Below, piece by piece: positions 1,290 to 27,508 of a stretch of DNA of 38,619 nt; the stretch's first letter is position 1; every line of letters starts with the position of its first letter. Under the pieces are notes generated by a model. That model was given only the letters and a program-made list of their open reading frames with translations, made no database searches and was not told the origin of the DNA. The position numbers were made by a program, and so were the translations under genes. The stretch covers positions 1 through 38,619 of the forward strand of contig PKTY01000387.1 in assembly GCA_002869725.1 (NCBI GenBank), given 5' to 3'. Origin of the DNA: Desulfuromonas sp. (GTDB lineage: Bacteria; Desulfobacterota; Desulfuromonadia; Desulfuromonadales; BM103).

Positions 1290-2105
1290 TCAACCCCCTT
1301 TGCGGGCAATGGCAAGCAACACCTCGTAACTCGCTGGCACCCCCTTCTCCGTACGGTGACGCTCTTCGTAGGAGCGGATCATCTCCTCAACGATTTGGCG
1401 TGAAGCCAAGCCACGCGGCCGGTCAACCGCCGCATTAGCGGCACCGATCTGCTTGAGACGTCGCAACAGTTGCGGCACATCCTGGTGATATTCGATCTCC
1501 ATCCAACTCTGCAACCGCTCCACGGTCAAACCACTCCCCCCCAAAGCTTCTGACACTTCATCCAAGGTGGGGAAACTCTGCGCATGAGACAGTCGCATCT
1601 GCCCACAAGAAGATACAGCGGCACGGTGCGAACTGCGCAGTTCATGGAGAGTCTGCTCGCCAAACAGGGCGACGGCAAAAAGACCGTCAGGCTTCAAAAC
1701 ACGCGCCACGTCACTAAACGCTGTCGGCAGAGACTCGACCCACTGGTAGACGGAACTCGAGACAACCGCCGCCAAAACCTCTTTGGCAATCGGCAGGTGA
1801 CGCGCGTCACCATCGCAGGCCCAGGCCGACGGCAGACGGTGCAGGGCGGTTCGGGTCATGCTGTGAGCATGGTCCATGACCAGAATCGCTTGATGTGAAA
1901 ACCGGCTGCTGAGTTCGGCGGCCAGCAGACCGGTCCCCGTGCCAATATCGAGAATCGGTCCTTCCTGCAGTTGATAATCGGAAAACTCTTCGGCAAGCCG
2001 ATGCGCGACATGCTTTTGAACGTTTGCATACTGATCGTAATCCGATGCATGGGCCGCAAAGTTGCTGCGTACCCGTCGCCGGTCAAGGGACTTTATCGGG
2101 ACCAT
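1290..2105 (-). CDS. bioC: Malonyl-ACP O-methyltransferase BioC
   Basis: SAM motif LDIGTGTGLLAAEL; N-term 'VRSNFAAHASDYDQYANVQKHVAHRL' is typical of BioC; start placed at internal ATG 2103-2105; overlaps the end of bioH. Confidence 0.88.
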   Translation of the reverse strand: MVPIKSLDRRRVRSNFAAHASDYDQYANVQKHVAHRLAEEFSDYQLQEGPILDIGTGTGLLAAELSSRFSHQAILVMDHAHSMTRTALHRLPSAWACDGDARHLPIAKEVLAAVVSSSVYQWVESLPTAFSDVARVLKPDGLFAVALFGEQTLHELRSSHRAAVSSCGQMRLSHAQSFPTLDEVSEALGGSGLTVERLQSWMEIEYHQDVPQLLRRLKQIGAANAAVDRPRGLASRQIVEEMIRSYEERHRTEKGVPASYEVLLAIARKGG

Positions 2106-2899
2106 GTCGCAGCGGCCTCCGCGATCATCATTGCCACCTGCTGTGGCCGACTCCAGAATGGTGCATGCCCGGCTCCGGGGATAACCTCTCTCTTCACCTC
2201 GGGAAGTTGAGATCCAAACCATTCTCCGGCTGCCAGGGGGGTGACCTGGTCCTGTTCCCCATGAATGACCAACGCAGGGAGCGTCAAATTTTTCAAAAGA
2301 GTGCGCTGATCCTGGTGTTCCAAAACCTCAAGCAGAGTTGAGGCCACCTGCGGATCGACAAGTTCCCCAGGGTAGAGGGCAAAGCGCCGGATCGTCGCGA
2401 CCCGCTGCTCGGCAATCTCTTCCCCGGCAAAGGTCAATCGAAAAAAGTCAGCGAGGGTTGCATCAAAACGGCGCAGCAGGTTGCGCCGCAGAGCTCTAAC
2501 CTGGGTAGCAGGCAAACCGTGTGACCAGTCTGTACTGCTGGTAAATCGTGGTGAAGTCCCGATCAGGATCAGGCCGCTCAAGTCTGCACAGGACTCGGAG
2601 GCCATCTGCATGGCGACCATCCCCCCGAGCGACCAGCCACCGAGACAGATCGGACCGGGGGCAACCACTGTCAGCCAGTCGCGCAGATCCTGAGCCAGAG
2701 TGCGTAGTGAAACATCCCGACTGGATGATGAATTGCCATGCCCGGTCAGATCGGGGAGGAGCAGCCTGAATTGCCCCTTGAGCTGTTCGGCGAGTTCGGC
2801 AAAGGCCAGCCCGGAGATGGCCCAGCCGTGCACCAGCACAAGCACCGGGCCCTGGCCGATTTCCCGCCAGGCCAGAGTCCGCCCATCAGGCAGGATCAT
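2093..2899 (-). CDS. bioH: Pimeloyl-ACP methyl ester carboxylesterase BioH (alpha/beta hydrolase)
   Basis: VLVHGWAISG, GGWSLGGMVAMQ nucleophile elbow, C-terminal HGEQDQVTP and GAGHAPFWSRP; lies between bioF and bioC. Start placed at ATG 2897-2899. Confidence 0.88.
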   Translation of the reverse strand: MILPDGRTLAWREIGQGPVLVLVHGWAISGLAFAELAEQLKGQFRLLLPDLTGHGNSSSSRDVSLRTLAQDLRDWLTVVAPGPICLGGWSLGGMVAMQMASESCADLSGLILIGTSPRFTSSTDWSHGLPATQVRALRRNLLRRFDATLADFFRLTFAGEEIAEQRVATIRRFALYPGELVDPQVASTLLEVLEHQDQRTLLKNLTLPALVIHGEQDQVTPLAAGEWFGSQLPEVKREVIPGAGHAPFWSRPQQVAMMIAEAAATWSR

Positions 2900-2910
2900 T
2901 GCGTGACTTT

Positions 2911-4089
2911 TCAAGTCCGACACTCTTTGACCACTCTCAGGATGGTTTGGGCTGCAGCGACAAGCTCCTGCGGTTGATGGCTGGCCATCACCGTAGCCCG
3001 TAGGCGACACAACCCCTCTCCTACTGTCGGCGGCCGAATCCCTTGCAGAAAAATCCCCTCTTTGAACAGGCGACCTGTCATGGCCATGGTCGGTGCGGGG
3101 TCGCGGGTCAACACCGGGATGATCTGAGTTTGGCTGTTGAGTATATCGAGGTCCCCTTCGGTCAGAGCCCTGGCCAGCAGACTGCGGTTACGCTCCAGGT
3201 CAGCGCGCAGCTGCCTTCCTTCATCGGACTCGACCAGGTCGATGGCAGCGATGGCGGCTGCCGCAACGGCTGGCGGCAGACTGGTGGAAAAGATCAAGGG
3301 CCGACTGCGGTTGAGCAGGCGATCGATCACCGTGCGCGAAGCGGCCAGGTAGGCTCCGGCGCAACCGAGGGCCTTGCCAAGGGTTCCCATCTGCAGATCG
3401 ACCCGCCCAAGACAACCGCAATGCTCGGCGCTACCCCGCCCACGCTCACCGAGCACACCGGTACCGTGCGCATCATCGACCATCAGCAGGGCGTCAAAGC
3501 GTTCCTTGAGGTCGCAGAGTTCCCTGAGGGGTGCCAGGTCGCCATCCATACTGAACACACCATCAGTGACAATCAGCCAAGCCCCCTTTCTTTGGTGACT
3601 CTCCCGTTCCATCAGTTGTTCGAGGGCCACCAGATCACGGTGGGGGTAGACCAGAGTCCGGACGCGCGACAGGCGACAGCCGTCGATGATCGATGCGTGG
3701 TTCAGTGCGTCGGAAAAAACCAAGTCATCAGGACCGCACAGCCCTTGAATAATGCCGGTATTGGCTGCATAGCCGCTGTTGAACAGCAGGGCCGCCTCGG
3801 CCTCCTTGAAAGCGGCCACACGCTCCTCGAAAGCGGCATGGGGAGCCATGCTGCCGGAAACCAGCCGACTGGCACCGGAGCCGACTCCAAACTGGCGAAT
3901 CGCCACCATGGCCGCCTCAACCAGCAGGGGATGGTTGGCGAGCCCCAGATAATCGTTGGAGCTAAGGAGCAAAAGATCACGACCATCAATGCGAACCTTC
4001 GGACCCTGTGCCCCTTCGACGGTACGCAGAGTGCGCAGCATGTCCCGGGCAGTCAGGCTATCAAGTTCCGCCTGCCATTGGCTCAGCAC
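2911..4089 (-). CDS. bioF: 8-amino-7-oxononanoate synthase
   Basis: PLP alpha-oxoamine synthase motifs: SSNDYLGLANHP, GSGASRLVSG, DDAHGTGVLGERGRG, TLGKALGCAGAY. GTG start overlaps the bioW stop (GTGCTGA). Confidence 0.95.
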   Translation of the reverse strand: MLSQWQAELDSLTARDMLRTLRTVEGAQGPKVRIDGRDLLLLSSNDYLGLANHPLLVEAAMVAIRQFGVGSGASRLVSGSMAPHAAFEERVAAFKEAEAALLFNSGYAANTGIIQGLCGPDDLVFSDALNHASIIDGCRLSRVRTLVYPHRDLVALEQLMERESHQRKGAWLIVTDGVFSMDGDLAPLRELCDLKERFDALLMVDDAHGTGVLGERGRGSAEHCGCLGRVDLQMGTLGKALGCAGAYLAASRTVIDRLLNRSRPLIFSTSLPPAVAAAAIAAIDLVESDEGRQLRADLERNRSLLARALTEGDLDILNSQTQIIPVLTRDPAPTMAMTGRLFKEGIFLQGIRPPTVGEGLCRLRATVMASHQPQELVAAAQTILRVVKECRT

Positions 4090-4886
4090 GGTTCGTTCCA
4101 GGTTTGTAGTGGGTGGACTGAAGCCAGACTATCGAACAGCACCGGTTTCCGCTCCAGAAAGTCGACAAATTCGGCAAGAGACCATTGCCGACGGTCGACG
4201 AATAAAGCTCTTCCTCCCAGGCTGTCGCCAGCCTCTTTCAGTGGGCTGATCCGTTGATAACCGGCCGTCGGAGTGGACACATAGCCGGTCAGGTAAGACG
4301 GATCATCCGACCAGCACAGCTCGGCCACAATCCCTGGCGCATGGAGAACTTTACCGGCCAGTACCAGGGCTTCGGCGATCCGATGATGGGACAAACCTTC
4401 ATCGGCCAGCGCTGAAATCAGATCGTCACGACATGCGGGGGAGAAATCCATGCGACTGACCCGCACCCCCCTTGACCAATCAGCTTCAAGGCGCTCCCCG
4501 CTCTCGGCATCGATAATCATGGCTCCACGCATGACCTTGCCCCCAGGAGCGGGGCCGTCAACCAGAGAGGAAAGAGCACGCTTGGCGGCCAGCTGAGAAA
4601 CCCCACCGGCAACCAACAGCCGGCAGGCCAGTTGTCGACCGGCTGCTGCACCACAAACCTGCCAGCTGCGGATATGGGGAAGAGAGGAAAGGTGGATCTC
4701 TTGGGGTTTAAGTTCCTCGGTGGTGGAATGGATCTCATCAGGGAGAGGTTGCACAGCGAGAGCGCGATCGAGGAGTTCGGCGGACACCTGGCGCAACTGA
4801 TGGATCGGGACAATGCGCTCGGCTCCACACAGATGCTGTCCGGAACGACTGGCGCGTAGCCGCAGACTGTAGAGGGGAGAAGTCAT
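4083..4886 (-). CDS. bioW: 6-carboxyhexanoate--CoA ligase (pimeloyl-CoA synthetase)
   Basis: YSLRLRASRSGQHLCGAERIVPIHQL, RGAMIIDAESGERLEADWSRGVRVSRMD, IAEALVLAGKVLHAPGIVAELCWSDDPSYLTGYVS..GYQRISPLKE. These match the BioW family pattern as recalled from B. subtilis BioW. Confidence 0.93.
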   Translation of the reverse strand: MTSPLYSLRLRASRSGQHLCGAERIVPIHQLRQVSAELLDRALAVQPLPDEIHSTTEELKPQEIHLSSLPHIRSWQVCGAAAGRQLACRLLVAGGVSQLAAKRALSSLVDGPAPGGKVMRGAMIIDAESGERLEADWSRGVRVSRMDFSPACRDDLISALADEGLSHHRIAEALVLAGKVLHAPGIVAELCWSDDPSYLTGYVSTPTAGYQRISPLKEAGDSLGGRALFVDRRQWSLAEFVDFLERKPVLFDSLASVHPLQTWNEPC

Positions 4887-4916
4887 GGCGCCAGAAACTA
4901 GCACCAGCAACGGGCA

Positions 4917-4948
4917 ATGTCAACCTCACTAAAAGCCAAGGTTGACAA
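4917..4948 (-). promoter_or_regulatory. BirA-operator-like inverted repeat upstream of the bio operon
   Basis: On the + strand ATGTCAACC-N14-GGTTGACAA, resembling the BirA consensus TTGTnAACC-N14/15-GGTTnACAA. On the minus strand the operator overlaps a TTGACA-N17-TAGTTT promoter-like element, 31 nt before the bioW ATG. Confidence 0.8.
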
Positions 4949-4976
4949 TTGATAGCCTCAGCAATCACTCAGCAGA

Positions 4977-7067
4977 TTAGTCGGCCAGATAGACTGACTC
5001 CAGGGCTTCCAGACCCGTTTTTTCGCCAATCACCATCAGCCGATCCCCCTCCTGGATTACGGTATTGCCATCGGGGACAAATGACTGACCATCGCGGGTC
5101 AACATGGCGACAAGGCACCCCTTGGGAACAGCCAGGTCGCGCAGGGACTGACCGGCCATACTGGCCGTCCGGCTCTGAGAGCGGATATGCAACTGCAGGA
5201 AGTGATCATCATGGAGCAGGCTTTGTCGCAATGACTGATCATCGCCCGCCTGCTTCCACTCGCTGGTAAAGCTCTTTTCATCGACCCGCTCGGCAATGCG
5301 GGCCAGTATCCGTAAATGCTGGGTTGGATTATGGTCAGGACTGACCAGGAAAAACAGAGCTTGAACCTCTTCGGACCCTTCTTCCTGATAGGTCAAAGGG
5401 TTGAAGATCGCAATTCGTACTCCCTGCCGGGCCCTCACCAACACCATCTCGGCACGCTCAACCTTGTCCGAACGGAAATGTGGCAGCGCCACGCCGCGGG
5501 TCACCGGAGTCGCTCCGACCTTGTTGCCATCCATGATCTGGCGGCAGATGTCGGCTTCGGACAAGGGAATGATCGTCTGCAGTTTTTCAGCAACCTTCTT
5601 CACCACTGCTTCAAAAGACAAGGGCTGGTGAAGATCGAGCACCCGGCTTCGAGTCACAATCTCATCGAAGGGATCCTCTTCGCGCAGCCCCTTCTCCCGC
5701 AAAATCCCCCGAAGTTCGGTATCGAGATCGTTGTGCTTGTGCCGTCCCAGACGCTCAAAGACATGGTAGATTGCCCCGGCACGGACCACCCTGTGCCGAC
5801 CGTAGTAGAGGTACCATCCGCAACAGACCAGAATCAGTCCGAAGGAAAAGAGCATCGGTACCTTACCCATCTCATAGATCAGGTAAATTGGCATGACGAT
5901 GCCGAGCAATTGCATCCAGGGGTAAAAGGGAGAGCGAAAACTTGGGTCGTAGGACTGAATCTGACTCTCACGCATGACAATCACGGCGAGGCAGACCAGG
6001 GCAAACATCAAAAGCTGGAAAGAACTTGCCAACTTGGCAATCCCAACAGGATCGAACAGTACGATAATCAGGATAACCGTAGTCACCGTCGCTGAAATGG
6101 CGTGAAACGGGGTGCCAAATCTACCTAAACGCCTGAACAGATCGGGAAGCAGGTGGTCGCGGCTCATAGCCAGCGGGTAGCGCGAGGCACTGAGCATCCC
6201 GGCGTTAGCGACCGAAACAAATGCAAGCAGGGCCGCAATGGAGAGCAGGACCACTCCGACCTCACCCAGGGCATATCCGGCTGCGGTCGCTACGGGGGTC
6301 AGGTTATTGCGCAACTCGGCTGGCGGGACCAGGCCGACAATCACCATCGTCCCCAGGCCATAGACTAAAATAGCCGTAGCCAGGGCGAGAATCACTGCTC
6401 GTGGCAGGTTTTGTTCGGGATCCTTGATCTCCTCAGACAGGCTGGCCACTTTGGTGACTCCGACATAGCTGATATAGACTAGGCCCGCTGTTGACATAAT
6501 GGAATCAAATCCGGAGGCGAAAAAATCCTGGAAATGAACGGTCTGTAAAGAGAAAAAACCACCGGTAAAAAAAACCAGCAACAGGCTAAGAAGAGCAAAA
6601 ACCAGGAAGACCTGCAGCCCGCCGCTCTTTTTGGTGCCGAACATGTTGATCAGACCAAGGACCAGAGCAATGGCCACCGCCACCGGGATAATCTGAAGTT
6701 TCGGAAAAAACAAAGCGATATAGGCACCCATTCCAACCAGAGCAAAGGCGACCTTGAGAATCAGGGCCAACCAGGTACCGATACCACCGATGGTTCCCAG
6801 AAATGGCCCGAGAGAGCGGTCAAGAAAATAGTAGACACCACCTGCGCGGGGCATGGCCGTAGCCAGCTCGATGACACTGAACATAGCCGGGATCATCGGC
6901 AGAGCAGCCAGCAGATAGGCAAGTATGAGCGCCGGGCCAGCCTGAGCGGCGGCAATGCCGGGCAGCAGGAAAAAGCCGGCGCTCAAGGTCGCTCCGGTGG
7001 CAATGGCATAGACGTCAAGGAGCCTGAGCTCTTTTTTCAGTCGGACATGTGGTTTAGCGACCGCCAT
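4977..7067 (-). CDS. APC-family amino acid permease fused to C-terminal PTS-EIIA-like and TrkA-C/RCK-C-like domains
   Basis: N-term APC core (LLDVYAIATGATLSAGFFLLPGIAAAQAGPALILAYLLAALPMIP); middle 'ADICRQIMDGNKVGATPVTRGVALPHFRSDKV' is EIIA-like with a conserved HF; C-term 'LAVPKGCLVAMLTRDGQSFVPDGNTVIQEGDRLMVIG' is TrkA-C-like. Start set at internal ATG 7067. Confidence 0.87.
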   Translation of the reverse strand: MAVAKPHVRLKKELRLLDVYAIATGATLSAGFFLLPGIAAAQAGPALILAYLLAALPMIPAMFSVIELATAMPRAGGVYYFLDRSLGPFLGTIGGIGTWLALILKVAFALVGMGAYIALFFPKLQIIPVAVAIALVLGLINMFGTKKSGGLQVFLVFALLSLLLVFFTGGFFSLQTVHFQDFFASGFDSIMSTAGLVYISYVGVTKVASLSEEIKDPEQNLPRAVILALATAILVYGLGTMVIVGLVPPAELRNNLTPVATAAGYALGEVGVVLLSIAALLAFVSVANAGMLSASRYPLAMSRDHLLPDLFRRLGRFGTPFHAISATVTTVILIIVLFDPVGIAKLASSFQLLMFALVCLAVIVMRESQIQSYDPSFRSPFYPWMQLLGIVMPIYLIYEMGKVPMLFSFGLILVCCGWYLYYGRHRVVRAGAIYHVFERLGRHKHNDLDTELRGILREKGLREEDPFDEIVTRSRVLDLHQPLSFEAVVKKVAEKLQTIIPLSEADICRQIMDGNKVGATPVTRGVALPHFRSDKVERAEMVLVRARQGVRIAIFNPLTYQEEGSEEVQALFFLVSPDHNPTQHLRILARIAERVDEKSFTSEWKQAGDDQSLRQSLLHDDHFLQLHIRSQSRTASMAGQSLRDLAVPKGCLVAMLTRDGQSFVPDGNTVIQEGDRLMVIGEKTGLEALESVYLAD

Positions 7068-7359
7068 TGACTCTGACTCTCTCATCGATCAAGTTTTGCG
7101 GGTTCCGAACAGGAGATGGACAACAATCACCAAATAGCTCTGCCGAACACTGCTACCCGAAAGACTTTAGCACACCTTGATGGCTCTTTCGAACAGTCAA
7201 TCAAGATGGGTAGCGTTGCAAAAGCTCTCTATCGGCAGCCTTGCAGCCACCGCCAGAGAACGTCCAGCCCATTTTTTCTTGTCTGTCGGCCAGTCGCCAT
7301 GCTAGCTTCCGCCCCGATGTCAACTGATTCGCGCTTGTTGCCATGAGGACGCAACAGAG

Positions 7360-10869: not shown

Positions 10870-12027
10870 ATGCTTGGTACAAAAATGGTCAAAGTCCTGA
10901 CTTATCTGTTTCTGCTTGTTTTTACGACTTTCGGACTGGTCTCCGGGAGCCAGGCGGCTGAACTGACCCAGCGCGATTGGATGATCGAGCTGGTCAATAC
11001 CCTCGATCTCTCCTTCGGACTTCCAGACGATCCCGAGGACACTGATTATACGCAAATCCTGGGGGGGAATCGTACTTTTCGTTTTGAAACGGAGGATATT
11101 TACGCTCCGGACGAGGACGAAGTTTCCAGGATGGCGTTCGGCAATTTCGGAAGTTTCAGTGGTTCGGCCTGGTTGAACGGTCTGAGCCGTTCCACAATCG
11201 TTCACCTGCGCTTCACCCTCCCCCTTGGTGGCCTTTTCCGTTTCAGCGCCGGGTTGCGCAACGGACCTCATGAGTTCAGCCTCGGTGATGAGCGGTTGAC
11301 CGCTTCCGGTGAGCAGAGATTCAGTCATGTCGAAATCGCAGAAGTGTCGCTACAGGCGGGCGCCCAGGAGATTGTCGTCACCCTGCCACCCGGCGGCGCC
11401 ATCGACTATATCGAATTGACCGCCCCAGCCCTGTTTCCGATCAGCCCAAGGCACAACTGGCAGCCCGAGCAGCCGCTTGAGTGGGACGATATTCAGACCA
11501 CACTTCTCCAGGCCTTTGAACTCGGTGACCTTCTCAGTGCAGCAGATTCACCACAGCACTACGAAGCGGAAGATCTCGACCTGCACAAGGAACAGACCTT
11601 TTCCCTGACCAGCATCGAACACCTCGGGCGTCCCAGTGGCGACGGATGGTTGCGAGCCGGCAATCTCCCCGGCCAGCTCGTATTTGCCTTCGAGCTCGAG
11701 TCCGGGAACTTTTACCGACCAGCCCTGCGCATTCTGGGAAAACAGGTTCGGGTCGACTTCAACCACCAACACCGGCTGTCCATTGCCGGTCTCAGCTACC
11801 TTGAGAACTTCTCCCTAAAACCGCTTTTTCTCTACCAGGGGACCAGCCAGGTCAGCATCGACCTGCCGGCCGGGGGAGGATTCGACTATTTCGAACTGAC
11901 CGAACTCGACAGTTCTCTGGACGCCGCTAGCGAACTGCTTGGCCTCAAACCGGACTCTCCTGCGCCAACCACAAACGACCTGGAATATCTGGCAGCCCTG
12001 CTCGCCGCCTTCGGAAGCAACCGCTGA
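10870..12027 (+). CDS. Secreted protein of unknown function with two tandem beta-sandwich/CBM-like repeats
   Basis: N-terminal signal peptide (VLTYLFLLVFTTFGLVSGSQA); RBS-like GAGGGGAG upstream; internal duplication at roughly aa 70-186 and 230-346 (EAED..SG.GWL..LP.GG.DYIELT). Ends 3 nt before comEC. Confidence 0.8.
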   Translation: MLGTKMVKVLTYLFLLVFTTFGLVSGSQAAELTQRDWMIELVNTLDLSFGLPDDPEDTDYTQILGGNRTFRFETEDIYAPDEDEVSRMAFGNFGSFSGSAWLNGLSRSTIVHLRFTLPLGGLFRFSAGLRNGPHEFSLGDERLTASGEQRFSHVEIAEVSLQAGAQEIVVTLPPGGAIDYIELTAPALFPISPRHNWQPEQPLEWDDIQTTLLQAFELGDLLSAADSPQHYEAEDLDLHKEQTFSLTSIEHLGRPSGDGWLRAGNLPGQLVFAFELESGNFYRPALRILGKQVRVDFNHQHRLSIAGLSYLENFSLKPLFLYQGTSQVSIDLPAGGGFDYFELTELDSSLDAASELLGLKPDSPAPTTNDLEYLAALLAAFGSNR

Positions 12028-12030
12028 TAG

Positions 12031-14388
12031 ATGGCCCCTTATTGGCTGCTCGGCGTTTTTGCGTCGGGCATTGCCTTGGCCAGACTGTTTCCCACACCAG
12101 TCTCTCCACTGGCGCTGGGTTCCTGTGCAAGCTTGCTGGCCATCAGCTGGTTTCTGCTACGCAATCACTCCACGGTCTGGCTGCCTCTGCTGGTCGCAAC
12201 CGCGCTCTGCGGATTTTTGCTCACTCATGGGGCTCTTATCCCTACTGGTCACTCCGGACATATCAGTCGTTTCGCCGGCAACGACCAACTCATCATCGAA
12301 GCTAGGCTGATCAGTCAGGAGAAGACCGCAAAACAAGGGGTCAGAGCCCTTCTCGAAACCACAATGGTCATCAAGGGTGAACAGGGGACGGACACTCACG
12401 GCAGACTGCAGCTGAGAATCGAAACCGGAGGACTGCGGGCTCGTCCAGGCCAAATGATCCGCTTCCGCGGACGTATCCGCACCCCGCAACGCTTTGGCAC
12501 CCCGGGCGAATTCAACTATCCCCTGCATCTGGCCAGCCAAAAGATCTACGTAACCAGTTTCGTCACACGAGGGGAAGATATTTTGATTCTTCCCCAGCAT
12601 CCGGCAGGTCAAACCTATTTTTGGGAGGAGATTCGCCATACCCTGGCACAACGGATCGATCAGACCGTCGAGCCGCATCGATCCCCTCTGGTTAAAGCTC
12701 TGACTATCGGCATGCGTGGCGAAGTCAGCGACGAGCAACGTCGTCTGCTCAGCGAAAGTGGTGTCGCCCATCTCTTTGCCATTTCCGGATTGCACTTCGG
12801 TCTGCTCGGTTATCTGCTCTACATCGGCAGTGGCTGGTTTTACCGCCGCAGTCACAGGCTGATTCTGCTTCTGCCGCCCAAGCGGATCCTCCCCCTGCTG
12901 TTGATCGCCCCCCTTGGCGGATACCTCTGCTTGACTGGCAATAGCTGGTCGACGGCTCGCGCCTTCTGCATGGCGGCACTCGCCGCCGCTCTGCTGGTTG
13001 GATATCGTCGCACTCCGCCTCTAGTCATGCTTGCCACCACGGCGCTGATCCTGCTCATCTTGTCACCCCTGGCTCTGTTTCAACCCGGTTTTCAGCTCTC
13101 GTTTGCCGGCCTAGCTGGGATTCTGCGTTGGATGCCAGGGTGGCAAGAGCGGACGAGAGGATTTCCTCAACTTTTTCGCTGGCCTATAACCATTATTCTG
13201 ACCACAACTGCAGCCACCCTGGGGACCTCCCCTATTCTTCTCTGGCATTTCCATCAGCTCTCACCAGCCGGAATCCCGGCCAATCTGCTGGCCATTCCGC
13301 CGATTGCCTGGGGGGCCGTTCCTGCATGCCTGTTAGCAGCCTCCACGTCCTGGTTCGCACCGCAGCTATCCGATTTGAGCTTCCAACTCGCAGGGGCAAT
13401 CATCGAGTTGACTCTTGATACGGTCGGCTGGATTGCCGGCCTGCCGGGGATGGACCCTGTCTATTATCCGTTGGCCCAGGGAGAGATGCTGATACTTGGC
13501 GCCCTGCTCTTCAGTCTGCTCTGGCAGTCAAACAGTCACAGAGAGCGCCTGGTGCGGTGGGGACTGCCGACACTGGCGCTGGCAATCGCAGTTTCAAACT
13601 CACCGGGTCCCCGTGACAGCCTGCAAGTGATCGCTCTAGCGGTCGGCCAGGGGGACGCCACCCTGGTCACCTTGCCTGGCAACCGACACTACCTGATCGA
13701 TGGAGGAGGGCTTCCGGGTTCAACCATTGATGTCGGAGAACGTCTGGTCGCCCCGGCTCTCGGCCGCTTGGGGGTTCACCATCTCGATGGCATCATCCTC
13801 ACCCACGACCACCCCGATCATCGCGACGGGCTCCCCGCTGTCATCGACCACCTGCCGGTTGACAACTTCTGGTCGGCAATCCCTCCGGAGGAGCTTCACC
13901 CCACCCTGGCTTCGCAACTGAAGTTGCACGGTGTTCGCACCCACCAGCTTCAGGAAGGTTGGCGGGAACTCCCCAGCAGTGCCGGACAGGGGCTCATGCT
14001 GTTTACCCCGAATCAGCAGGCTCGGGACCTCAATAACCGGTCCGTTATTGTCATGGCGTCCGACCAGCACAACCGGGTTCTGCTCACTGCCGACCTAGGC
14101 CCTGAGGGTCTTCGCCAACTGTTGGCCGAACGCCAAACCGAGTCGGTGAACCTGCTGAAGATCTCACACCACGGTAGTCGTCACTCAGCTCCGGACGCTT
14201 TTCTGAGCGCTTTTCGGCCCGAAATCGCCTTCGTTTCAGCTGGCCGGAACAACCTCTACGGATTCCCCCACCCGGACACCCTTGACTGTTTCAGCCAAGC
14301 CCAAGTAGAAGTCTATCGCACTGACCAAGACGGAACCCTGATCCTCAACAGCGAGCCTTATGGCTGGCAGGTTAAAACGAGACTTTAG
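12031..14388 (+). CDS. comEC: DNA internalization-related competence protein ComEC/Rec2
   Basis: Competence domain 'LTIGMRGEVSDEQRRLLSESGVAHLFAISGLHFGLLGYLLY' and C-terminal metallo-beta-lactamase-like domain 'VGQGDATLVTLPGNRHYLIDGGG..ILTHDHPDHRDGL..LKISHHGSRHSAPDAFL'. Confidence 0.95.
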   Translation: MAPYWLLGVFASGIALARLFPTPVSPLALGSCASLLAISWFLLRNHSTVWLPLLVATALCGFLLTHGALIPTGHSGHISRFAGNDQLIIEARLISQEKTAKQGVRALLETTMVIKGEQGTDTHGRLQLRIETGGLRARPGQMIRFRGRIRTPQRFGTPGEFNYPLHLASQKIYVTSFVTRGEDILILPQHPAGQTYFWEEIRHTLAQRIDQTVEPHRSPLVKALTIGMRGEVSDEQRRLLSESGVAHLFAISGLHFGLLGYLLYIGSGWFYRRSHRLILLLPPKRILPLLLIAPLGGYLCLTGNSWSTARAFCMAALAAALLVGYRRTPPLVMLATTALILLILSPLALFQPGFQLSFAGLAGILRWMPGWQERTRGFPQLFRWPITIILTTTAATLGTSPILLWHFHQLSPAGIPANLLAIPPIAWGAVPACLLAASTSWFAPQLSDLSFQLAGAIIELTLDTVGWIAGLPGMDPVYYPLAQGEMLILGALLFSLLWQSNSHRERLVRWGLPTLALAIAVSNSPGPRDSLQVIALAVGQGDATLVTLPGNRHYLIDGGGLPGSTIDVGERLVAPALGRLGVHHLDGIILTHDHPDHRDGLPAVIDHLPVDNFWSAIPPEELHPTLASQLKLHGVRTHQLQEGWRELPSSAGQGLMLFTPNQQARDLNNRSVIVMASDQHNRVLLTADLGPEGLRQLLAERQTESVNLLKISHHGSRHSAPDAFLSAFRPEIAFVSAGRNNLYGFPHPDTLDCFSQAQVEVYRTDQDGTLILNSEPYGWQVKTRL

Positions 14389-20214: not shown

Positions 20215-21615
20215 TCAGGGGGTGCCGAGATTGTCATCGACATCGACTCCGTATTTCGCGAGCCGGTAGCGAATCGACCGGAAGGTGATCCCCAGCAGAT
20301 CGGCTGCAGATTTGCGCACCCCCCCTGTCTTGTTGAGCGCTTTGAGCAAGATTTCTTTCTCGATCTCACCTAGGTAGGCATCAAGATCCATCCCGGTATC
20401 GGGAATGTCCGTCAACGGGGTGACCGTTCCAGACATGCCGGTCACCAGGTTCGGTGGGAGGCAATCGAGGCTAACCTCTCCACCCTGCCCCAGGACTGTC
20501 GCCCGTTCGATGACATTTTCCAGCTCGCGCACATTCCCCGGCCAGTGGTAATCGATCAGTCTCCGCATCGCCTCGTCGGTAACCTTTACTGACTCCTCAC
20601 CGGTGAACTGTTTCCAGAAATGATTAATCATGATCGGGATATCTTCGCGACGCTGGCGCAGGGGAGGCAGATCGATGCGAATCACATTGAACCGGTAATA
20701 GAGGTCCTCGCGAAAGCTGCCTGCGGCAACCGCCTCCTCGAGATGGCGATTGGTAGCAGCCAGAATCCTGACATCGGCCTTAAGATTTTTGTTGCCGCCA
20801 ACCCGTCGGAACTCGTTCTCCTGCAGAACCCGCAGCAGTTTGACCTGCATCAACGCCGGAAGCTCACCGATTTCATCGAGAAAAACAGTCCCCCCCGCTG
20901 CCGTTTCGAACAGTCCCTCTTTCTGTTTGATGGCTCCGGTAAACGAACCTTTCTCATGGCCGAACAGCTCGCTCTCCAGCAGGTTTTCCGGGATCGCCCC
21001 GCAGTTGATCGGCACGAAAGGCTGCTCGGCCCGATCACTGTTGTAGTGAATGGCCCGGGCCACCAGCTCCTTGCCGGTCCCCGACTCTCCGGTAACCAGC
21101 ACCTTGACCTGGCTGGTAGCAACCTTGCGGATGAGACTGAAGACATCCTGCATCGCCTTCGATTTGCCGATCAGCCCTTCAAAGGAGTAACGCCTCCCCA
21201 GCTGCTCCTTCAAGGCCAGGTTTTCCCGGCGCAGGTCACGTCGTTCCAGGGCATTTTTAACGATCAGGCGGATCTCTTCGTTCTTGAACGGCTTAGTAAT
21301 GTAGTCGTAGGCCCCCTGCTTCATGGCTTCGACCGCCTCCTCAGTGGTTGAAAAGGCGGTCACCATCAACACAACGGTTTCCGGGGTACGTTCCTTGATA
21401 TGAGAGAGGAGCTCTAGCCCCCCCATGCGCGGCATTTTCATATCAGAGATCACTAGATCATAGCTGTGCTCACGCAGGTGCACCACGGCCTGCGCACCAT
21501 CGACCGCTACATCGACCAGATAGCCTTCGCGGTGCAGCATGATACTCAAAAAATCCCGCATGCTCTGTTCGTCGTCAACGACCAGGATTCGGTGTCGGTT
21601 ACTGTCGGTCTTCAT
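20215..21615 (-). CDS. pilR: Sigma54-dependent response regulator, PilR-like (NtrC family)
   Basis: Receiver domain (VVDDEQSMRDFLSIML..VISDMKMPRMGGLELL), AAA+ GESGTGKELVARAIH and GAFTGA-type ELFGHEKGSFTGAIKQ, Fis-like HTH; adjacent to a pilS-like kinase and pilBTC. Confidence 0.93.
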   Translation of the reverse strand: MKTDSNRHRILVVDDEQSMRDFLSIMLHREGYLVDVAVDGAQAVVHLREHSYDLVISDMKMPRMGGLELLSHIKERTPETVVLMVTAFSTTEEAVEAMKQGAYDYITKPFKNEEIRLIVKNALERRDLRRENLALKEQLGRRYSFEGLIGKSKAMQDVFSLIRKVATSQVKVLVTGESGTGKELVARAIHYNSDRAEQPFVPINCGAIPENLLESELFGHEKGSFTGAIKQKEGLFETAAGGTVFLDEIGELPALMQVKLLRVLQENEFRRVGGNKNLKADVRILAATNRHLEEAVAAGSFREDLYYRFNVIRIDLPPLRQRREDIPIMINHFWKQFTGEESVKVTDEAMRRLIDYHWPGNVRELENVIERATVLGQGGEVSLDCLPPNLVTGMSGTVTPLTDIPDTGMDLDAYLGEIEKEILLKALNKTGGVRKSAADLLGITFRSIRYRLAKYGVDVDDNLGTP

Positions 21616-21684
21616 GGATTCCTTTCACGGATCTGCCTTAACCGGCAAGATTGAAGATCAATGTCTGATACCAGCAGGAACGCA

Positions 21685-23331
21685 TCAGCAAGCCTGCCGA
21701 CATTTGGGGGGCAATTCGATAATAAATCGCGCTCCCCCCAGATTGCTAGGCTCAACATAGACCCGTCCTTCATGGGCTTCGATGTTGGCATAAACATTGG
21801 CCAGTCCCAGGCCGGTCCCTCGGTCTTTGGTTGTAAAAAACGGCTCGAAAATCTTGTCACGATCCGATTCCAGAATTCCCGGCCCGCTATCCTCAATGGT
21901 GATCAGGCCTGCTGCGGAATCGGCCAAAACCAGAACCTCGCCGGTCGGTTGGGAGGCTTCGACCGCGTTAAGGAGCAGGTCCCAGAGGGACTGACGGATC
22001 TTCTGACGATCGACCTGCATGACCATCTTTTGCGAAAAAGATTTCAAAATCTCGACCTGCCCGGCCTGACCGCCAGCCTGCAGCAGATCGGTCAGCTCAT
22101 TGAGCAGCAGTGAAAGGTCGATGCACTCGAGTTGCAACGGCGTCGGCCGGGCAAAATTCAGGAAATTGCTCAGCAGTTGGCTGAGTCGGTCGGCCTCCTT
22201 AACCACAATCCCCATCAATCGGCGATTCTCCTCGCTGATCTGCGCGTCTTCGGCAAGCAGTTGCACCGAACCGCTGATCGACGCCAGGGGGTTGCGAATT
22301 TCATGAGCCAGTCCTGACGCCAGGCGCCCCACCGCCGCCAGTCGGTCATTGCGTTTGAGCTGCTCTTCAAGAATTTTGTATTCGGTCAGGTCCTGAAAAG
22401 CGATCAGTAATCCGAGGTTCACACCATGAGAATCCTGAACTTGGCTCGCCGAATAACCCAGGGTCAAGTCGGTCTCCCCCTGGCGATAAAAGGCCTCGCC
22501 GCGTTCGATGGTTGCCACCGACGAGGGGTCGACCTGATCGAACTCAGGAAACAACTCCTTCAGTGGCCGATTGTAGACCTGATCGAGGCGATATCCGGTC
22601 ATCCGGCTTGCCGCCTGATTAAAAGAGCGGATCCTCCCCTGGGTATTGATAATCATCAGACCACTGTTGATGTTGCTGAGGATCGCCTGGTTAAGCCGCT
22701 CCAGTTCCGCATAGTCGATCTCGCGTTGTTCTCTAGCCTCCTCACTGACCCGCAGCCGTTCGGCCAGGGAACCACTGAGCAGGGCAGTCAGGAAAAAGGC
22801 TCCTACATGCAGAAACACCGCATAGAAAACTTCTGACTGCTGCAACCCCTGAGGATAGGCGCGCTCACCAAACATCGGCAGGTAACCGAAAAATTGCAGA
22901 TCGAGCAAGCTGCCGAAGAGAATTGAAGATGCCGAAGCAACAATCAGTAGCTGACTTCGTGGCAAAAAAAGACTGGCAGCAATGATCACCAGGATAAACA
23001 GGAACGAGTAGTGGCTCTCCTGGCCGCCGGTCATATAGATCACCAGCAGCACGAACAACAGATCCCAACTCAACTGGAGATGAATGAACAGACGGAAACG
23101 TCGAAGGTGGCCGAGGATTGCTGAAGAGAGAGTGGTCTGCAGGATCGCAGCGGCCGTCAGGTAAGCCAGACAACGTGCCACCAGGGAGGTCTCCCAGGAG
23201 GCTTCGCGCAGTTGGAAAACTATGGTCCCGCCGAGGAAGAAACAGACAACAACAAGCCGAACCGCGAGATACCAGTTGATCAGCTTGCGGGAAGAATTTT
23301 GCGCGGATATCTCATGTAGCGCGCCGGACAT
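21685..23331 (-). CDS. pilS: PAS-domain membrane sensor histidine kinase, PilS-like
   Basis: N-terminal TMs, PAS region, '[23 protein letters not shown]' H-box, '[31 protein letters not shown]' ATPase. Confidence 0.9.
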
Positions 23332-23343
23332 CGCCCCGGACGG

Positions 23344-24561
23344 TCAACCGCCCACAGTCCCGGCCAGTTTGAATATCGGCAGGTACATGGCAACGACCAG
23401 ACCACCGACCGTGGTGCCGAGAAAAAGCATCAACATCGGTTCCATCATGGCCGTCAGGTTGCCGACAGCATCATCAACTTCATCATCGTAAAAATCAGCA
23501 ACCTTGTTGAGCATGGTGTCAATGGAGCCAGACTGCTCACCAACCGCAATCATCTGACAGACCATGGGAGGAAAGACCCCAGATTTTTCAAGGGGCTCGG
23601 CAATTGTCTTTCCTTCACTGATGCTCTGGCGCACCTTGTAGATGGCGTTTTCGACGACTTTGTTGCCGGCTGTCTTGGCGACGATCTCCAGACCATCGAG
23701 AATCGGCACCCCGCTGGAAATCATCGTCCCCAAAGTTCGGGTAAACTTGGCGACTGCTACCTTGCGGATCAGTACCCCCATGACCGGCAGCTTCAAAAAG
23801 ATGGCGTCCATCTGCAACCTGCCCGCGGGGGTTTTGTAGATCCGCTTAAGAATGAACATGATCGCCCAAGCGGCACCGATCATGACCAAAATGTAACTCT
23901 GAATAAAGTTACTCAGGTCGATGACAATTTGGGTAGGCATCGGCAAAGTGCCCCCGAAATCGGCGAACATCTTCTCAAATGAAGGAATAACGAAGACCAG
24001 GATCACGGCAATGACCACCACGGCAATCCCGATGATCGTCGCCGGATAGGTCATGGCGCTCTTGACCTTTTTCTTGAGTTTAAGCGCTTTTTCAATATAG
24101 GCAGCCAGACGGTTGAGAATGGTGTCTAGAATGCCACCGATTTCACCAGCGGCAACCAGATTGACATACAGATCGTCAAAGGCCTTGGGGTGCTTTTTCA
24201 AGGCATCGGCGAAAGTCGATCCGGATTCGACATCCTCCTTGATCTTGACCAGGATTTTCTTGAAGGTTTTGTTCTCTTGCTGCCTGCCGAGGATGTCGAG
24301 ACACTGTACCAGCGGCAGACCGGCATCAATCATGGTGGCAAACTGGCGTGTAAAGACCACGAGGTCCTTGGTGGTCACCTTGGGCTCGAACCCCGGAATG
24401 GATAGCTCGATATCCAGACCCTTGCCGCGCTCTTTGATGTTGCCCGGAGCCAGGCCCTGACGGCGCAGCTGTGCTTGGACGGCTTCGACGTTGGGCGCCT
24501 CCATTTCGCCCTTCATCACCGTTCCGGTCTTGGTCGTTGCTTCCCAGGCAAACTTTCCCAT
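23344..24561 (-). CDS. pilC: Type IV pilus inner-membrane platform protein PilC
   Basis: GspF/PilC domain: 'FTRQFATMIDAGLPLVQCLDILGRQQENKTFK', 'AMTYPATIIGIAVVVIAVILVFVIPSFEKMF', 'MMEPMLMLFLGTTVGGLVVAMYLPIFKL'. Confidence 0.96.
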   Translation of the reverse strand: MGKFAWEATTKTGTVMKGEMEAPNVEAVQAQLRRQGLAPGNIKERGKGLDIELSIPGFEPKVTTKDLVVFTRQFATMIDAGLPLVQCLDILGRQQENKTFKKILVKIKEDVESGSTFADALKKHPKAFDDLYVNLVAAGEIGGILDTILNRLAAYIEKALKLKKKVKSAMTYPATIIGIAVVVIAVILVFVIPSFEKMFADFGGTLPMPTQIVIDLSNFIQSYILVMIGAAWAIMFILKRIYKTPAGRLQMDAIFLKLPVMGVLIRKVAVAKFTRTLGTMISSGVPILDGLEIVAKTAGNKVVENAIYKVRQSISEGKTIAEPLEKSGVFPPMVCQMIAVGEQSGSIDTMLNKVADFYDDEVDDAVGNLTAMMEPMLMLFLGTTVGGLVVAMYLPIFKLAGTVGG

Positions 24562-24619
24562 GATCAGCCTCTCGATTTAATGTAGCGTGCCCAATCAGTG
24601 ATTGCAGTCGTTGCGACAC

Positions 24620-25756
24620 TCACCGTTTGTTGGCCACACCGGTCTGGACTCCACGTTTGAGAACCGCCTGCGGATTGGACATCATCTCTTTCAATTCCTC
24701 GACATCCGGCGACCGGGCGATGGCGTCATCCATACTGATCTTCTTGCTGTGATAAAGGGAGAACAGGCACTGGTTCATGGTCTGCATGCCGTACTTGTCC
24801 TGCCCCATCTGCATCTGCGAGTAGAGTTGGTGAATCTTGTCATCACGAACCAGTGCGCGGATCGCGGTATTCGGTACCATAATCTCCAGAGCCAGTGCTC
24901 GACCTCCGCCGATACGCGGAATCAGGGTCTGGGACAGCACCCCCTCCAGTACGAACGACAGCTGGGTGCGCACCTGCTGCTGCTGGTTGGTGGGAAAGAC
25001 ATCGACGATCCGGTTGATGGTCTGCACCGCGCCGTTGGTATGCAGGGTAGCAAAGCAGAGGTGGCCGGTTTCGGCAATGGTCAGGGCCGCCTCGATGGTC
25101 TCCAGGTTGCGCAACTCGCCAAGCAGGACGATATCGGGGTCCTGGCGCAGAATATATTTGAGAGCGTTCTGGAACGAATAGGTGTCGGTGCCAACCTCGC
25201 GCTGGTTGACCACGCACTTCTTGTGAGGGTGTATATATTCGATTGGATCTTCGACGGTAATAATATGTTCATGCCTAGTATTATTGATCTCATCGATAAT
25301 CGAGGCCAGAGTCGTGGACTTACCGGAACCGGTGGGACCGGTCACCAGCACCAGGCCGTTCGATTTCTTGGAGATCTCGTCAACGACCGGCGGCAGACCC
25401 AACTCCTGAAAACTGAGAAACTTGTAGGGGATCAGCCGGAACACCCCGCCCAGGGCCCCACGCTGCATGAAAACATTACCGCGGAACCTGGCCAGACCTT
25501 TGACCCCGAACGAAAAGTCGAGTTCATGATTCTCTTCGAACTTGCGTTTCTGGACTTCGGTCAGGATGCTGTAACAGATGTTCTTGGTATCAGCAGGCAG
25601 TAGGTTGCGCGTCTTCATCGGCGTCATCCGCCCGTTGACACGGATCTGCGGCGGGGTGCCGGTGGTAATATGCAGATCGGAAGCGCCCTGCTCCACCATG
25701 GTTTTCAGCATCTGCTGTATCGAAAAATCGGTCGTTTTTTGTTCATCCATCATCAC
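24620..25756 (-). CDS. pilT: Type IV pilus twitching motility ATPase PilT
   Basis: Walker A GPTGSGKSTTLASIIDEIN, ASP box TVEDPIEY, 'AALTIAETGHLCFATLHTNGAVQTINRIVDVFP', C-terminal AIARSPDVEEL. Same gene order as Geobacter pilB-pilT4-pilC. Confidence 0.95.
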   Translation of the reverse strand: MMMDEQKTTDFSIQQMLKTMVEQGASDLHITTGTPPQIRVNGRMTPMKTRNLLPADTKNICYSILTEVQKRKFEENHELDFSFGVKGLARFRGNVFMQRGALGGVFRLIPYKFLSFQELGLPPVVDEISKKSNGLVLVTGPTGSGKSTTLASIIDEINNTRHEHIITVEDPIEYIHPHKKCVVNQREVGTDTYSFQNALKYILRQDPDIVLLGELRNLETIEAALTIAETGHLCFATLHTNGAVQTINRIVDVFPTNQQQQVRTQLSFVLEGVLSQTLIPRIGGGRALALEIMVPNTAIRALVRDDKIHQLYSQMQMGQDKYGMQTMNQCLFSLYHSKKISMDDAIARSPDVEELKEMMSNPQAVLKRGVQTGVANKR

Positions 25757-25807
25757 AGTATCCAGATTGGCAGCAGTGACCGGTCAGAGAACACCTTCGG
25801 GTCAGTA

Positions 25808-27508
25808 TCAGTCATCGGCGACGGTGCAACGCATCACCTCTTCAAAGGAAGTAACCTGTTCTCCAACTTTTGACAGCGCAGCCTGACGCATGGTCTTGAC
25901 GCCAAGGCGCATCGATTCACGTTTAAGCTCGGCAGTGTTGGCCCCGGAGAGGATCAGTTCCCGCAACTCCTCGAACAATGGCATCACCTGGTAAAAACCG
26001 ACCCGCCCTTTATAACCGGTGTCGTTGCAGATGGAGCATCCCTCACCTCGATAGCAGACCATACTTTCGGCCTGATCTTCGGGAACGCCGGCCTGGATCA
26101 AGGTCGCTTTCGGTATCTCCTAAGGGACCTTGCACTCCTGACAGATCCGCCGGCCCAGGCGCTGCGCCGTGATCAGGTTGACAGCCGAAGCCACCAGGAA
26201 GGGCTCGATCCCCATGTTGAGCAGGCGGTTGACAGTGGCCGGAGCATCGTTGGTATGTAGCGTCGAGAGCACCAGGTGCCCGGTGAGCGCCGCTTTGACG
26301 CCGATCTCCGCCGTTTCAAAATCGCGGATTTCACCGATCATGATGATATCCGGGTCCTGCCTCAGAAAGGCGCGCAGGGCCGACGCAAAATTGAGGCCGA
26401 TCTCTTCGTGCATCTGCACCTGGTTGATGCCAGCGAAGTTGAACTCCACCGGGTCCTCGGCGGTCGAGATGTTTTCCGTCACCTTGTTGAGTTCGGCGAG
26501 CGCCGAGTAGAGGGAGACGGTCTTGCCGGAACCGGTCGGCCCGGTCACCAGCACCATACCGAACGGCTTGTGAATCTGCTCCTTGAACCACTTGAGCGAC
26601 CGCTCCTCATAGCCGAGTTTGTTCATGTCGAGCTGCAGATTCGATTTATCGAGCAGCCGCAGACACATTTTCTCGCCGAACAGAGTCGGCAGGCAGTTGA
26701 CCCGATAGTCCATATCCTGGCCACCGGGAAGCTTGATCTTGATGCGTCCGTCCTGGGGCAGACGACGTTCGGAGATGTCCATCTCCGACATGATCTTGAG
26801 ACGGGAGGTGATGGCATTCTTGAGCTTCATCGGCGGCTTCATCACCTCGTGGAGCACACCGTCGATCCGATAACGCACCCTGAACGATTTCTCGTAAGGC
26901 TCGATATGAATATCCGACGCCTTCTTCTTGATGGCATCGGTCAGGATCAGATTGCACAGTTTGACGACCGGCGCATCTTCGCTGGCCTTTTCCAGGGAAC
27001 TGACATCGATCTCATCTTCATCTTCAACGACCTCCAGGTCAATATCTTCAAGGTTGCCCATGACATCGTCGAACGATGCCGACTGATCGTAGTACTTGTC
27101 GATGGCTTGTTTGATGCTCGCCTCGGAAGCAACCACCACCTCGACATTGTAGCCGGTCATGAACTTGATATCGTCGATGGCAAAGATGTTCGACGGATCA
27201 GCCATGGCAACGATCAGCGTTGACCCCGCCCGGTTGACCGGAATCAGCTGGTACTTCTGTACCACCTCGGGGGCAATCAGCTTAATCACATTGGGATCAA
27301 TCTCAAATTCATTGAGATTGATGGACGGCACGCCGTACTGGCGCGACAGGAACGCCGCCAGATCCTCTTCCTTGATGAAGCCGAGCTTGACCAGACTGGC
27401 TCCAAGCCGCCCACCGGAGGCTTTCTGTTCAGCGAGAGCCTTGGCCAGTTGTTTGTCATCAATGAGTTTGTTGCGAACCAGAAGTTCGCCAAGACGATTT
27501 GCAGACAT
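25808..27508 (-). pseudogene. pilB: Type IV pilus assembly ATPase PilB interrupted by one in-frame TAG (two ORFs, 26120-27508 and 25808-26101)
   Basis: N-part 'MSANRLGELLVRNKLIDDKQLAKALAEQ..GPTGSGKTVSLYSALAELNK..RICQECKVP*'; C-part continues in the same frame as 'EIPKATLIQAGVPEDQAESMVCYRGEGCSICNDTGYKGRVGFYQVM..SFEEVMRCTVADD'. The TAG is + strand cta at 26120-26122; both ORFs share the same coordinate phase. Confidence 0.9.

Follow-up and report, generated by a model that had tools for sequence, protein, structure and literature searches.

Why would a single operon carry both pimeloyl routes of biotin synthesis, the BioW ligase as well as the BioC/BioH pair? We examined this in a window of 38,619 nucleotides, by which we mean the whole stretch of DNA analyzed. 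It corresponds to contig C346 of a Desulfuromonas sp. assembly (2.93 Mb in 426 contigs, 88.5% complete, 7.3% contamination). The elements of the locus, in window coordinates and in the direction of reading, are as follows.

4917..4948, minus strand: BirA operator TTGTCAACC-N14-GGTTGACAT, 0 mismatches to the pattern, 30 bp upstream of the bioW ATG
4895..4923, minus strand: predicted promoter, with -35 TTGACA at 4923-4918, a 17-nt spacer and an extended -10 TG-n-TAGTTT at 4900-4895
4083..4886, minus strand: bioW, predicted 6-carboxyhexanoate--CoA ligase; ATG start; PF03744, 226.6 bits; conserved motifs
2911..4089, minus strand: bioF; 7-nt overlap with bioW; TIGR00858, 448.5 bits
2093..2923, minus strand: bioH, predicted pimeloyl-ACP methyl ester esterase; GTG start; 13-nt overlap with bioF; TIGR01738, 158.8 bits
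1290..2105, minus strand: bioC, predicted malonyl-ACP O-methyltransferase; ATG start; 13-nt overlap with bioH; TIGR02072, 181.8 bits

The four genes thus adjoin on one strand (1290-4886), each with profile-HMM support, as the first-pass annotation had described; the right end that it gave, 4948, marks the outer edge of the BirA operator. The gene identities are supported at the family level, and the enzyme activities are those predicted from these families. BioW covers positions 1-238 of the 239 in the PF03744 profile, far above the cut-off of 25 bits, and falls slightly under two NCBIfam equivalog cut-offs (217.6 vs 226 and 187.8 vs 193.55 bits, short by 6-8 bits). It aligns nearly end to end with the BioW structures 5tv5 and 5flg, and its motifs MRGA, GVRVSRM and ELCWSDDP are present and conserved. 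BioF exceeds its equivalog cut-off (426.45 bits), and its PDB structure matches belong to the alpha-oxoamine synthase family. The top family of BioH is TIGR01738, yet its score lies below the cut-off of 206.95 bits. Its top PDB match is BioH 4nmw (E 9e-27), with which the catalytic Ser, Asp and His align (GWSLGG, the Asp of GEQDQVTP and the His of GAGHAPF). BioC is about 3 bits short of its cut-off (184.95 bits, against 181.8 for the protein and 182.2 in a six-frame search), and its top PDB match is the malonyl-ACP O-methyltransferase 8x8i.

Scores under curated cut-offs could mean that BioH or BioC is a look-alike hydrolase or methyltransferase with no role in biotin synthesis. We regard this as very improbable indeed, as the top family and top structure match of both proteins are biotin enzymes and both genes sit within an operon headed by a BirA operator. 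Moreover, the TIGR01738 cut-off is passed by none of 136 Desulfuromonadales genomes, so it seems too strict for this order. The TIGR02072 cut-off is passed by 22 of the 136, with many more narrowly under it. Because of these counts, we read both shortfalls as a property of the group, and calling BioH and BioC misannotated by cut-offs alone was rejected, since no member of the order reaches the BioH cut-off. HMM and PDB matches together support the proposal that one operon encodes both routes. It lacks bioA, bioB and bioD, also as annotated, and all three were found on other contigs: bioD and bioB, truncated by the contig end, together on C238, and the bioA N-terminus at the end of C426.

Other features of the window were recorded in passing. 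A 702-aa protein (4977-7085, minus strand) fuses amino acid permease, PTS EIIA type 2 and TrkA-C domains. An ORF of 385 aa (10870-12027, plus strand) matches nothing in Pfam or NCBIfam at E 0.001 and is closely followed by the gene of a ComEC-like competence protein at 12031-14388. A type IV pilus cluster with PilR-, PilS-, PilC-, PilT- and PilB-like proteins occupies 20215-27508 on the minus strand.

The BirA operator is specific. The strict pattern is expected by chance 0.05 times in the window, matches once in the 2.93-Mb assembly and gives 0 matches when reversed as a control. In the relatives examined, the box upstream of bioW has the strict form in 33 operons; visual inspection of 15 others showed a weaker half-site on one side, with TTGACA retained. 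A chance box is ruled out by the low expectation, the uniqueness in the genome and this conservation. The operator also agrees with the published Desulfuromonas bioW site (Table 1 of PMC545781). With this palindrome ahead of the first gene and a BirA on C335 that carries HTH_11 (helix-turn-helix) and BPL domains, the operon belongs among the BirA-regulated ones.

The predicted -35 TTGACA falls in the inner half-site of the operator, and from this overlap we predict repression by BirA. A generic sigma-70 scan missed the promoter because its -10 fits just 3 of 6 consensus bases. All 33 strict-box operons have TTGACA, a spacer of 17 or 18 nt and then an extended -10 (TG-n-TA; TG in 33/33), with the bioW start codon 6-10 nt past the -10 (8 nt in the window). 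A looser form of this layout is present in 46 of 48 loci, out of 51 occurrences in total over 593,548 positions on both strands; these loci are related, so the promoter and start counts are not independent. With the same dependence among loci, a Shine-Dalgarno-like tetramer precedes 0 of 48 bioW starts vs 33 of 50 bioF starts. The short distance from the -10 to the ATG and the absent Shine-Dalgarno-like motif predict that the bioW message is leaderless or nearly so. Our literature search found no prior report of the conserved bioW start layout, and a search on leaderless transcription in Geobacter gave no relevant paper. The layout offers a cheap and specific prediction, namely a leaderless bioW message.

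From the operator and gene arrangement, we infer that BirA represses the four genes and that they are co-transcribed. This bears on the suggestion in the first-pass annotation that the cell might switch routes with pimelate supply. The presence of two routes would allow such regulated use, but a single BirA operator and a single predicted promoter lie upstream of all four genes, and we consider switching very unlikely. This evidence concerns transcription, and allosteric or translational switching remains compatible with it. A simple promoter and terminator scan, itself uninformative, listed no promoter within the operon on the coding strand.

We profiled the distribution of the arrangement by tabulating the positions of the best BioW, BioF, BioH and BioC matches in each of the 136 Desulfuromonadales genomes (order assigned from the titles of homologous loci). 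The four genes are contiguous, on one strand and in the order W-F-H-C in 75 genomes, the present one included, and 34 genomes lack all four genes at the listed thresholds. Among named records, almost all of the nearest loci come from Desulfuromonadales (Malonomonas rubra, Geothermobacter hydrogeniphilus, Desulfuromonas spp., Geoalkalibacter and Pelobacter). A BioW match was found in 89 genomes of the order; those without the full arrangement include contigs ending inside the operon and the genomes G096, G098 and G099. In G096 the operon is missing bioW, with a divergent BioW encoded at another place, and G098 and G099 have a divergent BioW and no BioC/BioH.

Two of these divergent homologues, in L111 (G096:C30) and L133 (G099:C31), are about 27% identical to the BioW of the window, lack the ELCWSDDP and MRGA motifs and lie apart from bioF, bioH and bioC; they are possibly a different ligase. 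A separate variation concerns bioH. In L108 (G089), L109 (G049) and L113 (G031), the gap between bioF and bioC is about 600-750 bp with no BioH-like match, so a different esterase may do the work of BioH in these loci.

Outside the order, BioW relatives (from Nitrospirae, Methanoperedens, Tumebacillus and others) are beside or near bioF with no bioC or bioH, and in 26 of 27 BioW-bearing genomes nothing matches the BioC family above about 98 bits. The exception is L197 (MAG: Bacilli bacterium RYN_350), in which bioH-bioC-bioW-bioF occupy 3409-6884 and the BioC and BioW exceed their NCBIfam cut-offs, apparently a second, independent clustering of both routes. The statement that organisms usually rely on one route is partly right, as it fits those 26 of 27 genomes outside Desulfuromonadales. 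By its own terms, the first-pass annotation would be refuted if the arrangement were on record as widespread in the clade. This is largely the case, given the Desulfuromonas report of 2004 (PMC545781) and the 75 genomes counted here.

The same annotation had raised the recent acquisition of one module, which would then be redundant. Outside the order, BioW relatives mostly adjoin bioF without bioC/bioH, and bioW-bioF may originally have stood as a unit of its own. However, the gene order is identical in 75 genomes from many families of the order. Median dN/dS values are 0.146 for bioW, 0.094 for bioF, 0.168 for bioH and 0.124 for bioC (Nei-Gojobori, 16-17 pairs of related genomes, some of them near saturation). 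By these values, purifying selection acts on all four genes, and none appears relaxed. In light of this order-wide operon and these values, recent acquisition is scarcely credible.

How, then, would two routes serve one BioF? We think it likely that this is an ordinary Desulfuromonadales operon for the first stage of biotin synthesis, controlled by BirA, in which both routes feed one BioF in parallel. At low biotin, BirA would come off the operator, which overlaps the -35 box, and a single transcript would be made for bioW, bioF, bioH and bioC. BioC would methylate malonyl-ACP, fatty acid synthesis would yield pimeloyl-ACP methyl ester, and pimeloyl-ACP would result once BioH strips off the methyl group. 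Alongside this route, BioW would turn free pimelate, imported or released within the cell, into pimeloyl-CoA. One BioF would join either thioester to alanine, and BioA, BioD and BioB, encoded at other loci, would complete the ring. Both the dual substrate use by BioF and the source of pimelate are extrapolated from sequence here.

The two routes could instead act in series, with a thioesterase freeing pimelate from the pimeloyl-ACP made through BioC/BioH and BioW re-activating it for a CoA-specific BioF. Bacillus subtilis offers a precedent: free pimelate is made by fatty acid synthesis and then activated by BioW, which is needed there, and its BioF uses pimeloyl-CoA only and refuses pimeloyl-ACP, whereas the Escherichia coli BioF takes both thioesters (PMC7645780, PMC11089781). 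The persistence of the four genes together across the order and the apparently independent cluster in the Bacilli MAG would also fit a series. On the other hand, the operon carries no thioesterase gene, and Geobacter is reported with bioC-bioH alone (PMC545781).

A natural bioW deletion also bears on this question. In L107 (G090:C70), the operator (BirA box 4705-4735) and promoter are kept ahead of bioF-bioH-bioC and bioW is gone; the profile search found no BioW match in this draft genome, which is about 99% complete. The G090 BioF pairs with that of G091 (bootstrap/SH-aLRT 89/96) inside a clade of BioW-associated BioFs (100/99 for the whole clade). This suggests that bioW is dispensable in G090. 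For its lineage, BioC/BioH would seem to be enough, and BioF appears to work without BioW. It is plausible, as the first-pass annotation also proposed, that BioF in these operons accepts both pimeloyl-CoA and pimeloyl-ACP; the loss of bioW in a genome whose BioF groups with BioW-associated ones fits this. The deletion, a single natural case in one draft genome, speaks for two routes supplying one BioF in parallel rather than for an obligatory series. G090 might get its biotin another way, or its bioW might sit in an unassembled stretch.

With these observations on both sides, we judge the serial route unlikely. A fuller version, in which a BirA-blocked promoter with a leaderless bioW message would drive an obligatory series from BioC/BioH through pimelate to BioW for a CoA-specific BioF, seems quite improbable. 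Parallel feeding remains our preferred reading.

The biotin operon of B. subtilis is under BirA-type control, as here, and likewise has bioW and bioF in one operon. It differs in its content, bioWAFDBI with no bioC/bioH (PMC9544090), and the operon here lacks bioI. E. coli shares BioC, BioH and BioF homologues and BirA control with the present operon. Unlike it, E. coli depends on BioC/BioH, has no BioW route and carries bioH outside its bio operon (PMC11089781). Geobacter resembles the present case in a BirA site, there ahead of bioF, and in a bioC-bioH pair; it differs in that bioW is not reported for it (PMC545781). The closest system is Desulfuromonas itself, for which Rodionov et al. (2004, PMC545781) reported bioC-bioH and bioW in one genome, with a BirA site, aTGTcAACC-N14-GGTTgACAg, before bioW, as here, and a second BirA site ahead of bioB at a separate locus. 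Apart from that paper, our literature search found no description of a genome with bioW plus bioC-bioH in the clade.

The two-route operon is thus real, conserved, BirA-regulated and already known in kind; as the co-occurrence of bioW and bioC-bioH was published in 2004, it is no news by itself. Relative to the available part of PMC545781, the additions made here are modest: a survey of conservation across the order, an estimate of selection, a natural bioW deletion and a start-codon layout that predicts a leaderless bioW message.
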